Assembly (NCBI GenBank): GCA_035937135.1
Contig: DASYVL010000094.1
Span: forward strand, 1 to 42,601
Source of the DNA: Terriglobales bacterium
GTDB lineage: Bacteria; Acidobacteriota; Terriglobia; Terriglobales; Acidobacteriaceae
DNA length: 42,601 bases
Direction: 5' to 3'
A program made the translations under genes and the position numbers. Below, piece by piece: positions 16,732 to 20,278 of this stretch. Numbering within the stretch: position 1 is the stretch's first letter; the number at the start of each line of letters is the position of its first letter. The notes under the pieces were generated by a model. That model made no database searches, had not been told where the DNA came from, and saw only the letters and a program-made list of their open reading frames with translations.

Positions 16732-18093
16732 ATGACTGCACGGGCTGCACACGCCAGGAAGAGCACGAAATCGGAACCCCAGGGCGAGATCGCCAAGGCC
16801 CGCGGCAAGCTGGGCGTGATGATCCCCGGCATGGGCGCGGTGGCCACTACCTTTGTGGCCGGTGTGGAAGCCATCCGCAAGGGGTACGCCAAACCCATCG
16901 GGTCGCTCACTCAGATGGGGACCATCCGCCTGGGCAAGCGCACCGACGGCCGCGCGCCCCTGATCAAGAAGTTCGTGCCGCTCGCCCCCCTGAGCAACCT
17001 GGTCTTCACCGGATGGGACATCTTCGAAGACGACATGTACACCGCCGCGCGCAAGGCCGGGGTGCTGGAAAAAGAGCTGCTCGACCGGGTGAAGCCCTTC
17101 CTCGAATCCGTCCAGCCGCGCCCCGCGGTCTTCGACCAGCGCTACGTCAAGAAGCTCAACGGTCCCAACGTCAAAAAGGGCAAGAACAAGATGGAACTGG
17201 CGGAGCAGCTTCGCGCCGACATCCGCGACTTCAAGAAGACCTCCGGCGCCGACCGCCTGGTGATGATCTGGTGTGCCTCGACCGAGATCTTCCTGAAGCC
17301 GAGCCGGGTGCACGCCTCGCTCAAAGCCTTCGAAAAGGGGCTGCTGGAGAACGACGAGGACATCGCGCCCTCGATGGTCTACGCCTACGCCGCGCTCTCC
17401 GAGGGCGTGCCCTTCGCCAACGGCGCGCCGAACCTCACCGTGGACATCCGTGCGATGCACGAGTTGGCGCGGCGCAATGAGGCTCCCATCTGCGGCAAGG
17501 ACTACAAGACTGGCCAGACGCTGCTCAAGACCATCCTCGCCCCCGGCTTCAAGGCGCGCATGCTGGGACTGCACGGCTGGTTCTCTACCAACATCCTGGG
17601 CAACCGCGACGGGGAAGTGCTGGACGATCCCGACGCGTTCAAGACCAAGGAAGAGTCGAAGCTCTCGGTGCTGGAGCAGATCCTGCAGCCAGACCTCTAT
17701 CCCGAGCTCTATGACAAGCTCTACCACAAGGTGCGCATCAACTATTATCCGCCTCGTGGCGACAACAAAGAGGGCTGGGACAACATCGACATCTTCGGCT
17801 GGCTGGGATATCCCATGCAGATCAAGGTGGACTTCCTCTGCCGCGACTCCATCCTGGCCGCGCCCCTCGTGCTCGACCTGGTGCTCTTCCTCGACCTGGC
17901 GCAGCGCAGCTCGAAGTTGCGACACCTGGGCATCCAGGAGTGGCTGAGCTTCTACTTCAAGTCGCCCATGACCGCCCCCGGCCTCTACGCCGAGCACGAC
18001 CTCTTCATCCAACTCATGAAGCTCAAGAACACCCTGCGCCACCTGCAGGGGGAGGGGCTGATCACCCACCTGGGGCTGGAGTATTACGACTAG
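16732..18093 (+). CDS. ino1: Inositol-3-phosphate synthase (myo-inositol-1-phosphate synthase)
   Basis: The product converts glucose-6-phosphate to 1L-myo-inositol-1-phosphate with bound NAD. The 453-residue protein has a Gly-rich nucleotide-binding N-terminus (GVMIPGMGAVATTFVAGVEA), LTQMGTIRLGKR, the WCASTEIF segment, CGKDYKTGQTL and GWFSTNILGNRDG, which together match the Ino1 family. It ends in LITHLGLEYYD. GAGGA lies about six bases before the ATG. Inositol phosphate could feed inositol lipids or compatible solutes. The extreme 3' end is repeated, with synonymous changes, at 20234-20278 on the far side of an AT-richer insert, so the end of this gene appears to be an insertion site. Confidence 0.95.
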   Translation: MTARAAHARKSTKSEPQGEIAKARGKLGVMIPGMGAVATTFVAGVEAIRKGYAKPIGSLTQMGTIRLGKRTDGRAPLIKKFVPLAPLSNLVFTGWDIFEDDMYTAARKAGVLEKELLDRVKPFLESVQPRPAVFDQRYVKKLNGPNVKKGKNKMELAEQLRADIRDFKKTSGADRLVMIWCASTEIFLKPSRVHASLKAFEKGLLENDEDIAPSMVYAYAALSEGVPFANGAPNLTVDIRAMHELARRNEAPICGKDYKTGQTLLKTILAPGFKARMLGLHGWFSTNILGNRDGEVLDDPDAFKTKEESKLSVLEQILQPDLYPELYDKLYHKVRINYYPPRGDNKEGWDNIDIFGWLGYPMQIKVDFLCRDSILAAPLVLDLVLFLDLAQRSSKLRHLGIQEWLSFYFKSPMTAPGLYAEHDLFIQLMKLKNTLRHLQGEGLITHLGLEYYD

Positions 18094-18200
18094 CGGTTAT
18101 CCCTTCAAACGACCACGTCCCAGCGCTCTGACATACGCTAATATTCGAAGCTCGCCGGTGTCCGCAGCAGAGTTGTAAGCGTCGCTCCACGAGAGAACAA

Positions 18201-19307
18201 ATGAACTCGAAACCTGTTTTTCTCGGAAGCCCGCCAGAAATCCGCCAAGCCATCTGTGCGCTTGCAGCACAGAGTTCGCGACTGGACATGGCGGCTGCTT
18301 TTGTTGGAGCGGACTGGTGGGAGCGGTTGGCCAATTATGGCGGAAAGATGCGTGTCATCTGCTGGCTGACCAGCACCAACACCAATCCCGATGCGGTGGC
18401 TGAGATGAGGTCTCGGTCGGGGGTCATAGTCAAACAGCGTAATTCAATGCACGCCAAGGTCTATCTTGCTCCCGGCATTGGAGCCGTCGTCGGTTCAGCT
18501 AACCTCTCCAAGGCTGCACTCGCGGACGAACAGGACATAGCAGGACAGAATGAGGCAGCCGTCTTAGTTCGGGACTCTTCTGTGGTCTCCAGCATCTCCG
18601 CTTGGTTCGAGGACTTATGGCGAGACAAACTGACGCGAGCTATAACAGACGAAGACTTGGAGCGCGCGAGAATCGCACGGAAGAAAGCTCAGAGAGGGGA
18701 CCGAAAGAGACCCCGCCCAGGCTTCGCGATGCAGTTGCCAAGAACCCTGAAGACGGAGAGCACCTTTCGTCGCTTGGAGAAGTGGGCGAAGCAGGTTCGC
18801 GGGTTAGACCTGGCCAGGTCTTTAGGTGAACACCATAATTTCTTCGCATGCCTAGTTCCTGCAACCCTTTCCGAGTCGCAAAGAAACAACCTCATCCGTC
18901 TACTGACCAAGTACGTGAAACACCGGACTGCATACCGCAGATTCGACCGCGAACCACTGGAGCGCGCTAGAAAGGGCTTAACCCTCCTCTTCGATGAAGG
19001 AGAGGATCTCCAGCACCGTCTTGAGGAGTTAGATCGGTTGAATCTGCTGCCGGGCATGAAAGTGCCGTCGCTGAGCCTGCTGCTCTATTGGCGTGAGCCT
19101 CGGCGATACGTGCCTTACAACCAAAAGACACAAAACTTCATGGAAGACTTTGGGTTGAAGAGGCGCGGTTTGAGCGCTGCTAGTCCTAAGTGCTACGCGA
19201 ACTGGCTCGGCTATGCCACTAGATTGCAGCAGCGACTCCGGCTACCATTTCCCGGTCATTTAGACCGAATGATTACACGGTACCTCGATTTCGCACTCGG
19301 TAGATAA
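18201..19307 (+). CDS. PLD-family (HKD-like) nuclease or phosphodiesterase
   Basis: This is a 368-residue protein. Residues ~1-165 form a phospholipase D-like domain with one catalytic motif: His84 and Lys86 (MHAKVYL), then GSANLSKAAL with Asn101. The Asp of a classical HxK(x4)D motif is replaced by Pro, as tolerated in some single-motif PLD nucleases, which act as dimers. Residues ~165-185 are a basic linker (ERARIARKKAQRGDRKRPRP). The C-terminal ~180 residues are an unrecognised domain rich in Arg, Leu and aromatic residues. A DNA-cleaving or repair/defence role is plausible. GAGAG lies four bases before the ATG. The linker contains the 35-bp segment shared, inverted, with the neighbouring TPR gene. 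Confidence 0.8.
   Translation: MNSKPVFLGSPPEIRQAICALAAQSSRLDMAAAFVGADWWERLANYGGKMRVICWLTSTNTNPDAVAEMRSRSGVIVKQRNSMHAKVYLAPGIGAVVGSANLSKAALADEQDIAGQNEAAVLVRDSSVVSSISAWFEDLWRDKLTRAITDEDLERARIARKKAQRGDRKRPRPGFAMQLPRTLKTESTFRRLEKWAKQVRGLDLARSLGEHHNFFACLVPATLSESQRNNLIRLLTKYVKHRTAYRRFDREPLERARKGLTLLFDEGEDLQHRLEELDRLNLLPGMKVPSLSLLLYWREPRRYVPYNQKTQNFMEDFGLKRRGLSAASPKCYANWLGYATRLQQRLRLPFPGHLDRMITRYLDFALGR
18722..18756 (+). repeat. Inverted repeat arm A (inside PLD gene)
   Basis: These 35 bases are identical to the reverse complement of 19806-19840. Similarity extends a few bases on each side with scattered changes. In the PLD frame the arm encodes residues ~174-186 (FAMQLPRTLKT). The frame that matches the TPR protein (LRDAVAKNPEDG) is a different one here. 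Confidence 0.95.
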
Positions 19308-19333
19308 CTCAACCCCGCTGCAGGTTTTTCACT

Positions 19334-20137
19334 TCACCTTGCGTAGCGTTCGATGCGCGATCGTATGTAGATGACATCAGGTTGCAAACCCATCTTTTCT
19401 AGCGCACGGGCCTCATAATCGGGCAAGCGGCCGAAATGGGAGTGGTACTCCTGAAGCCTTGCAGTCGCTTCACTCAAACGACCCATCTTGGCGAGTGTCA
19501 AGAGGACGTTTTCGAGGGCCAAGTTGTACGGCAGATCGTCGTCGCCTTCTGTCGCACTTCCGAGGGGATTCCCGCTTCCCCGCTCCGGCGCCGACCGCTT
19601 CAGGCGGCACGCAAGTTCAAACCACCCGAGCGCTTGCTCGTGCTCGCCGCGCTGATAGTGGTCCCAGCCGATATTGTTGAGACAATCCCGTTCCCAGTGG
19701 ATGCAAAGTGTATCCTGATGCTCTAGAGCCTTTGTGAAGGCTGTTAATGCCGAATCCCGATCATCAAGCGCGAGCAGCGCGACACCGAGACGAGCAAGGT
19801 TCTCCCCGTCTTCAGGGTTCTTGGCAACTGCATCGCGAAGTCTAGGTAGTTCCTCTTGAAAGGCAAGCAATTTGCTGTTGCACTCCTCGATTGTTTCAAT
19901 GAGGTCGGCTGCGATAGGCAGAGAGGCATCCTCGCCGCGTACCGCCAGTACTGCTACAGCCAGGTTGAAGCACTGAACCGTCGACCCACTCTGACGACGG
20001 AAACGAATCTCGAGCAGCGGGTCTTCGACTTCATTCTGCGCAACGGCCAGCATGAGATCACTCAACTCTTCGAGGTCCTTTCCCAAAGCTTCGAACAGAA
20101 CCGTCAAGTACTCTCGCGCCCATGTGTTCTCCAGCAT
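19334..20137 (-). CDS. TPR-repeat protein of the island
   Basis: This 267-residue soluble protein starts with a predicted helical N-terminal region (residues 1-90). It is followed by tetratricopeptide-like repeats: LPRLRDAVAKNPEDGENLARLG (split around residue 100), ALLALDDRDSALTAFTKAL, DHYQRGEHEQALGWFELAC and LLTLAKMGRLSEATARLQEY. TPR proteins are protein-protein scaffolds or sensors. No catalytic motif is visible. It is convergent with the PLD gene (26 bases between stops). No good ribosome site is seen before ATG 20137. Composition is AT-richer than the chromosome around it, as for the PLD gene, so the two probably arrived together. Confidence 0.75.
   Translation of the reverse strand: MLENTWAREYLTVLFEALGKDLEELSDLMLAVAQNEVEDPLLEIRFRRQSGSTVQCFNLAVAVLAVRGEDASLPIAADLIETIEECNSKLLAFQEELPRLRDAVAKNPEDGENLARLGVALLALDDRDSALTAFTKALEHQDTLCIHWERDCLNNIGWDHYQRGEHEQALGWFELACRLKRSAPERGSGNPLGSATEGDDDLPYNLALENVLLTLAKMGRLSEATARLQEYHSHFGRLPDYEARALEKMGLQPDVIYIRSRIERYAR
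19806..19840 (-). repeat. Inverted repeat arm B (inside TPR gene)
   Basis: This is the reverse complement of 18722-18756, 35 of 35 bases. In the TPR gene it encodes residues 100-111 (LRDAVAKNPEDG), a normal TPR helix sequence, so this is the more natural reading frame of the shared segment. Confidence 0.95.
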
Positions 20138-20233
20138 CCCGCACCGCCTACCACGTCACATCTGCTTCTTTTTCGTAAGGAGCAATGACCGTAGCCTGCT
20201 CATTATATGTCTTGCCGCGCAGCCCGAGAGCTT

Positions 20234-20278
20234 GGGGAGAAGCTCATCACACACCTGGGGCTGGAGTACTACGACTGA
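20234..20278 (+). pseudogene. Remnant copy of the ino1 3' end
   Basis: These 45 bases read GEKLITHLGLEYYD followed by TGA, against GEGLITHLGLEYYD followed by TAG at 18049-18093. Of 45 positions 38 match. All differences inside the LITHLGLEYYD part are synonymous third-position changes, so the two copies diverged as coding DNA. Homology stops abruptly upstream of 20234. It is followed immediately by terminator-like hairpins. It is most simply the original host end of ino1, or the end of a diverged allele, left behind when the island entered. Confidence 0.75.

Follow-up and report, generated by a model that had tools for sequence, protein, structure and literature searches.

The window, that is the whole stretch of 42,601 nucleotides that we analysed, carries two convergent genes with only 26 bp between their stop codons. 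The left gene, on the forward strand (18201-19307), encodes a PLD-domain protein of 368 aa with a PLDc_2 match (E 5.6e-8) at residues 66-140, an HxK/N motif and an orphan C-terminal half that starts at about residue 194. This protein also shows a weaker similarity to the NgoFVII restriction endonuclease and to DrmC of the DISARM system. The right gene, on the reverse strand (19334-20137), encodes a TPR-repeat protein of 267 aa. These two are the only genes of a 2.1 kb cassette (18092-20233), whose GC content is 55-56% versus 63-65% around it, and the neighbouring genes encode an SDR, a myo-inositol-1-phosphate synthase and an aminotransferase. The cassette lies between two direct repeats of 43 bp, both on the forward strand. 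The left one (18049-18091) is the 3'-end of the synthase gene, and the right one (20234-20276) is a second, variant 3'-end of the synthase (GEKLITHLGLEYYD), 88% identical to the left one, with differences partly at third positions and with a TGA stop of its own.

In two relatives (G224 and G648) the order DedA, SDR, synthase, aminotransferase and M48 peptidase is kept without the PLD and TPR genes. Therefore, the cassette would be an island inserted at the 3'-end of the synthase gene, and the comparison of gene orders supports this well. The cassette resembles the islands that integrate into gene ends in that the gene end is restored and differs from them in having no integrase here; by analogy, it may have entered by a mechanism of that kind. 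The coding pattern of the tail is present in 150 genomes of the family and, among the matches listed, only the genome of the window and G656 had two synthase tails close together on one contig. In the latter (L049, contig 239) the tail copies lie at 2163-2273 and 2372-2491, around 200 bp apart, with about 37 codons recognisable. Its second tail, just downstream of the synthase gene, may be what a further insertion at this site left behind.

Each gene of the cassette holds one arm of a perfect inverted repeat of 35 bp. Arm 1 (18722-18756, forward strand) lies inside the PLD gene, at residues 174-186 approximately of the PLD frame, and arm 2 (19806-19840, reverse strand), which we take as the source arm, covers codons 100-111 of the TPR gene (LRDAVAKNPEDG), in register with its homologues. 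The reverse complement of arm 2 equals arm 1 at 35 out of 35 positions and the spacing between the arms is about 1,050 bp. The similarity continues beyond this core: without gaps it extends over 62 nt with 85% identity (18705-18766 against 19796-19857), and a gapped alignment of the two copies has 52 identical columns out of 58, with one gap of 2 nt. In the PLD gene, the whole stretch that resembles TPR covers 18705-18778 on the forward strand, that is, the ungapped part up to 18766 and similarity in the TPR frame up to 18778.

The 35-mer occurs exactly twice in the whole genome (2,225,851 bp in 192 contigs). A 20-nt probe taken from the repeat, allowing up to 3 mismatches, matched only the two arms, where 0.01 matches were expected by chance. 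Furthermore, in a background sample of 60 contigs plus the window, all from the same genome (561 kb of non-N sequence), no other exact inverted repeat with arms 5 kb apart or less reaches 20 bp, self-overlapping palindromes aside. Regarding the flanks beyond the core, at most 7 out of 20,000 random PLD/TPR pairs were equally alike over 18-30 nt on each side. A chance origin of the repeat is excluded; the repeat is real, locally unique and explained in part. We also considered a dispersed palindromic or mobile repeat and rejected it, as such a repeat has many copies and this one has two in the genome and none in the viral contigs. As a separate observation, the genome does contain, in several contigs, a REP-like dispersed family of short palindromes that are nearly identical to each other, of the type GTAGAGACGNRGCRYGCYNCGTCTCTAC (L127 3072-3099 and 2595-2616, L118 404-431, L116 7825-7852).

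The two arms are read in different frames. The TPR codons begin at 18722, and the PLD frame reads the third positions of the TPR codons as second positions. Similarity at the protein level in the TPR frame spans around 21 codons (18716-18778), and 18 of these 21 codons have the same meaning in both copies, five differing codons being synonymous and replacement changes being few. Of the 11 nucleotide differences, 7 are at third positions of TPR codons (p = 0.04), and the codon likelihood is higher for the TPR frame than for the PLD frame across this patch only. The initial annotation had reported the perfect repeat, its reading in two frames and a TPR-frame similarity of about 22 codons (18712-18780), and had proposed a search of the genome for further copies; our measurements agree with it on the first three points, with a slightly shorter similarity, and the search returned the two arms alone.

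The direction of the copying can be read from the TPR homologues. We found only two good relatives of the TPR gene, in other families of the class (G010 and G172, 61% and 59% identical), and none in plasmids or viral contigs; neither was there a second TPR relative in the same genome at E <= 1e-6. Both homologues run through the segment without indels and have L..AV...P..G conserved in the same register (LKQAVEEDPNNG and LLEQVAEDPNNG against the LRDAVAKNPEDG of the window), so the source segment is present at its place in the relatives. This register, together with the conservation of the TPR-frame codons by synonymous changes, provides good support for a direction from TPR to PLD, as judged from these comparisons. 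As regards the surroundings of the homologues, inspection by eye of the ORFs suggested toxin-antitoxin-like genes nearby in L045 (7128-7837 and 8212-9081) and PIN-toxin and nuclease-like genes nearby in L046 (9109-9816); the copy in G172 has an in-frame TAG.

The PLD protein has nine relatives, eight of them plasmid-borne and one from the same class, which are 31-35% identical to it in the matching part; the motif residues H84, K86 and N101 are invariant across them. In the class (299 genomes) there was one weak match and in the phylum (396 genomes) none, and no relative appeared in phages or viral contigs. The nine relatives cover residues 6 to approximately 156-173, a few extending weakly to 180-192, and those from plasmids match chiefly the N-terminal half. 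When residues 172-193 were excised from the protein of the window, the scores of the relatives shifted by only -2.7 to +1.6 bits; since the excision barely moves the scores, the linker residues appear to be absent from all nine relatives, although the alignments end at about this point. By eye the linker of the window is around 20 residues longer than theirs, in a region where the alignment is not significant. The patch sits where the similarity to the relatives stops and the orphan C-terminal half starts. Searches of Pfam, of phages and of 287 genomes of the phylum with these last 178 aa or so (18771-19304) detected no relatives, and those of plasmids gave matches at chance level only; nor did the collections searched contain any closely related PLD protein that shares this C-terminal half. 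This half is nevertheless coding-like, as its shuffled versions are never open, and the PLD frame is open throughout the segment. A structure prediction from the single sequence gave a mean pLDDT of 36 and was not used.

Given that the relatives stop aligning at the patch and that the C-terminal half has no detectable homologue, the segment in the PLD gene may have arisen by a clean insertion, by a replacement or as the scar of a fusion. It had been suggested at the outset that a TPR fragment was copied into the PLD gene and is translated out of frame, and that an alignment of homologues might reveal an insertion at residues 170-193 approximately. The direction and the out-of-frame reading are supported by the register of the homologues, the synonymous changes and the lack of the linker in nine out of nine relatives, none of which has the same linker residues as far as the alignments reach; the insertion as such is one of the three possibilities, for the relatives stop aligning there. 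That the two genes share one cassette went unremarked in the initial annotation.

Regarding the divergence of the two copies, its bias towards synonymous changes and third positions of the TPR frame suggests that much of it arose while selection for the TPR protein was acting, be it on the TPR gene once the copy had been made or on the TPR allele that served as donor. The changes, when polarised by the TPR homologues, fall on both copies. Whether the core needed a later homogenisation depends on the alignment. Without gaps there are 11 substitutions in 28 flanking nucleotides and none in the 35 of the core, which is unexpected for a single old event (p = 0.0005), whereas in the gapped alignment a perfect core within diverged flanks is unexceptional (p = 0.08).

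The explanation that we consider probable, with appreciable doubt, is an inverted templated copy of the TPR segment, taken up by the convergent PLD gene as an out-of-frame linker and followed by divergence. Around 56-75 bp of the TPR gene would have been copied in inverted orientation into its convergent neighbour about 1 kb away, probably by template switching or by filler-DNA repair during replication. The copy would have landed where the PLD nuclease domain meets the C-terminal half, and it may have been retained since the PLD frame stayed open. Translation would now read the segment out of frame and yield a basic inter-domain linker. Both copies would have diverged afterwards, and the perfect core of 35 bp would be either a chance remainder or the outcome of a homogenisation that acted on the arms later. 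A point against this explanation is the distance between the arms, about 1,050 bp, where a template switch has a short spacer. Therefore, we only claim that the event works like a template switch or inverted templated duplication, where the new copy is likewise the reverse complement of a source close by. What we observed directly is the sequence, the number of copies, their frames, the register of the TPR homologues and the lack of the segment in the PLD relatives as far as these align; the mechanism, the expression of the linker and the neutrality of the segment are inferred. As a repeat, the segment probably serves no purpose, and it is probably an accidental scar of replication or repair, not a new genetic system.

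A different reading, which we hold to be unlikely, is that a gene fusion left the TPR-derived stretch as its scar, when repair synthesis patched the joint between PLD and a new C-terminal domain with around 60 bp copied backwards from the neighbour. If this were true, a working inter-domain linker would have been made from an out-of-frame coding fragment in one event.

It is rather improbable that the donor was some other, diverged TPR homologue (for instance one that a previous host of the cassette carried) or an older duplication, with the core made identical later by conversion between the arms. The ungapped contrast between flanks and core fits such a history, and the synonymous changes in the TPR frame imply either time or a donor that had already diverged; on the other hand, the gapped alignment removes the exceptional character of the core, and the genome has no second TPR relative at the threshold given above.

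Three further readings we regard as very improbable. The genome is a metagenome-type draft in 192 contigs, and so an assembly or sequencing artefact was weighed, but past the core the similarity tapers with scattered, partly synonymous substitutions, which is unlike a chimera, the PLD frame is open throughout, and the homologues verify the TPR arm on both sides, so that the copies cannot have been swapped. A shared regulatory element of RNA or DNA would place the same 35 nt in both mRNAs, where read-through transcripts could form a stem of 35 bp, and indeed both messages of these closely convergent genes carry an identical sense stretch. However, the TPR homologues keep the protein and not the nucleotides (47-53% identity in the core), which makes a conserved nucleic-acid element unlikely. 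The same low identity, compared with 61-64% for the gene average (15-24th percentile), means that the TPR core is somewhat less homologue-like than its gene on average, as it would be if the PLD linker had been copied into the TPR gene; nevertheless, the core encodes L..AV...P..G in the exact register of the homologues, which a random PLD frame would not do.

Least probable of all is an invertible switch, in which recombination between the perfect arms in the two convergent genes would flip the 1-kb spacer and turn both genes off and on; this inversion, also raised in the initial annotation, is disfavoured because its simulation truncates both genes (products of 205 aa for PLD and 134 aa for TPR, with wrong-frame tails), and the 35-mer is absent from the TPR homologues. 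Phase variation was thus rejected as a class, with no useful products in both orientations and no recombinase among the cassette genes (PLD, TPR) or their neighbours (SDR, inositol-P synthase, aminotransferase).

The inverted templated copy would offer a clean bacterial case, and one that can be polarised, of a coding fragment reused in another frame by an unrelated neighbouring gene. Such reuse would be a route to new protein linkers and domain joints that is invisible to homology searches. Within this genome, the event seems to be isolated. Should inverted patches of this kind prove to be repeatedly present where domains join, the contribution of short templated copying to new protein segments would be measurable.

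Compared with known systems, this case is one of a coding fragment captured out of frame, its mechanism would be of a known kind, and there is no sign of a dedicated system. Template switching between the arms of inverted repeats alters coding sequence, homogenises the arms and inverts spacers, for example in yeast coding genes (PMC8604942), where the arms and spacers are far shorter (the search there went up to 70 bp). The quasipalindrome mutagenesis of E. coli (PMC7202029) also has shorter arms and spacers. Our case would resemble these mutations in that an inverted templated copy alters coding sequence and makes the arms identical. It differs in that two unrelated genes about 1 kb apart and tens of bp are involved here, whereas the arms and spacers of the published coding cases are short. 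The coding palindromes of nematomorph mitochondria (PMC6649704) are likewise perfect inverted repeats within protein-coding DNA. However, they are numerous, reach 284 bp and encode conserved protein in both arms, whereas here there is a single pair and the TPR arm alone encodes a conserved motif. Finally, as with the small mobile repeats that are inserted in coding genes, such as the palindromic elements of Rickettsia (PMC2229807, PMC3767692), a short piece of foreign DNA would be translated within a host protein, although in our case there are only two copies in the genome, the source is a gene, and the segment itself is neither palindromic nor mobile.
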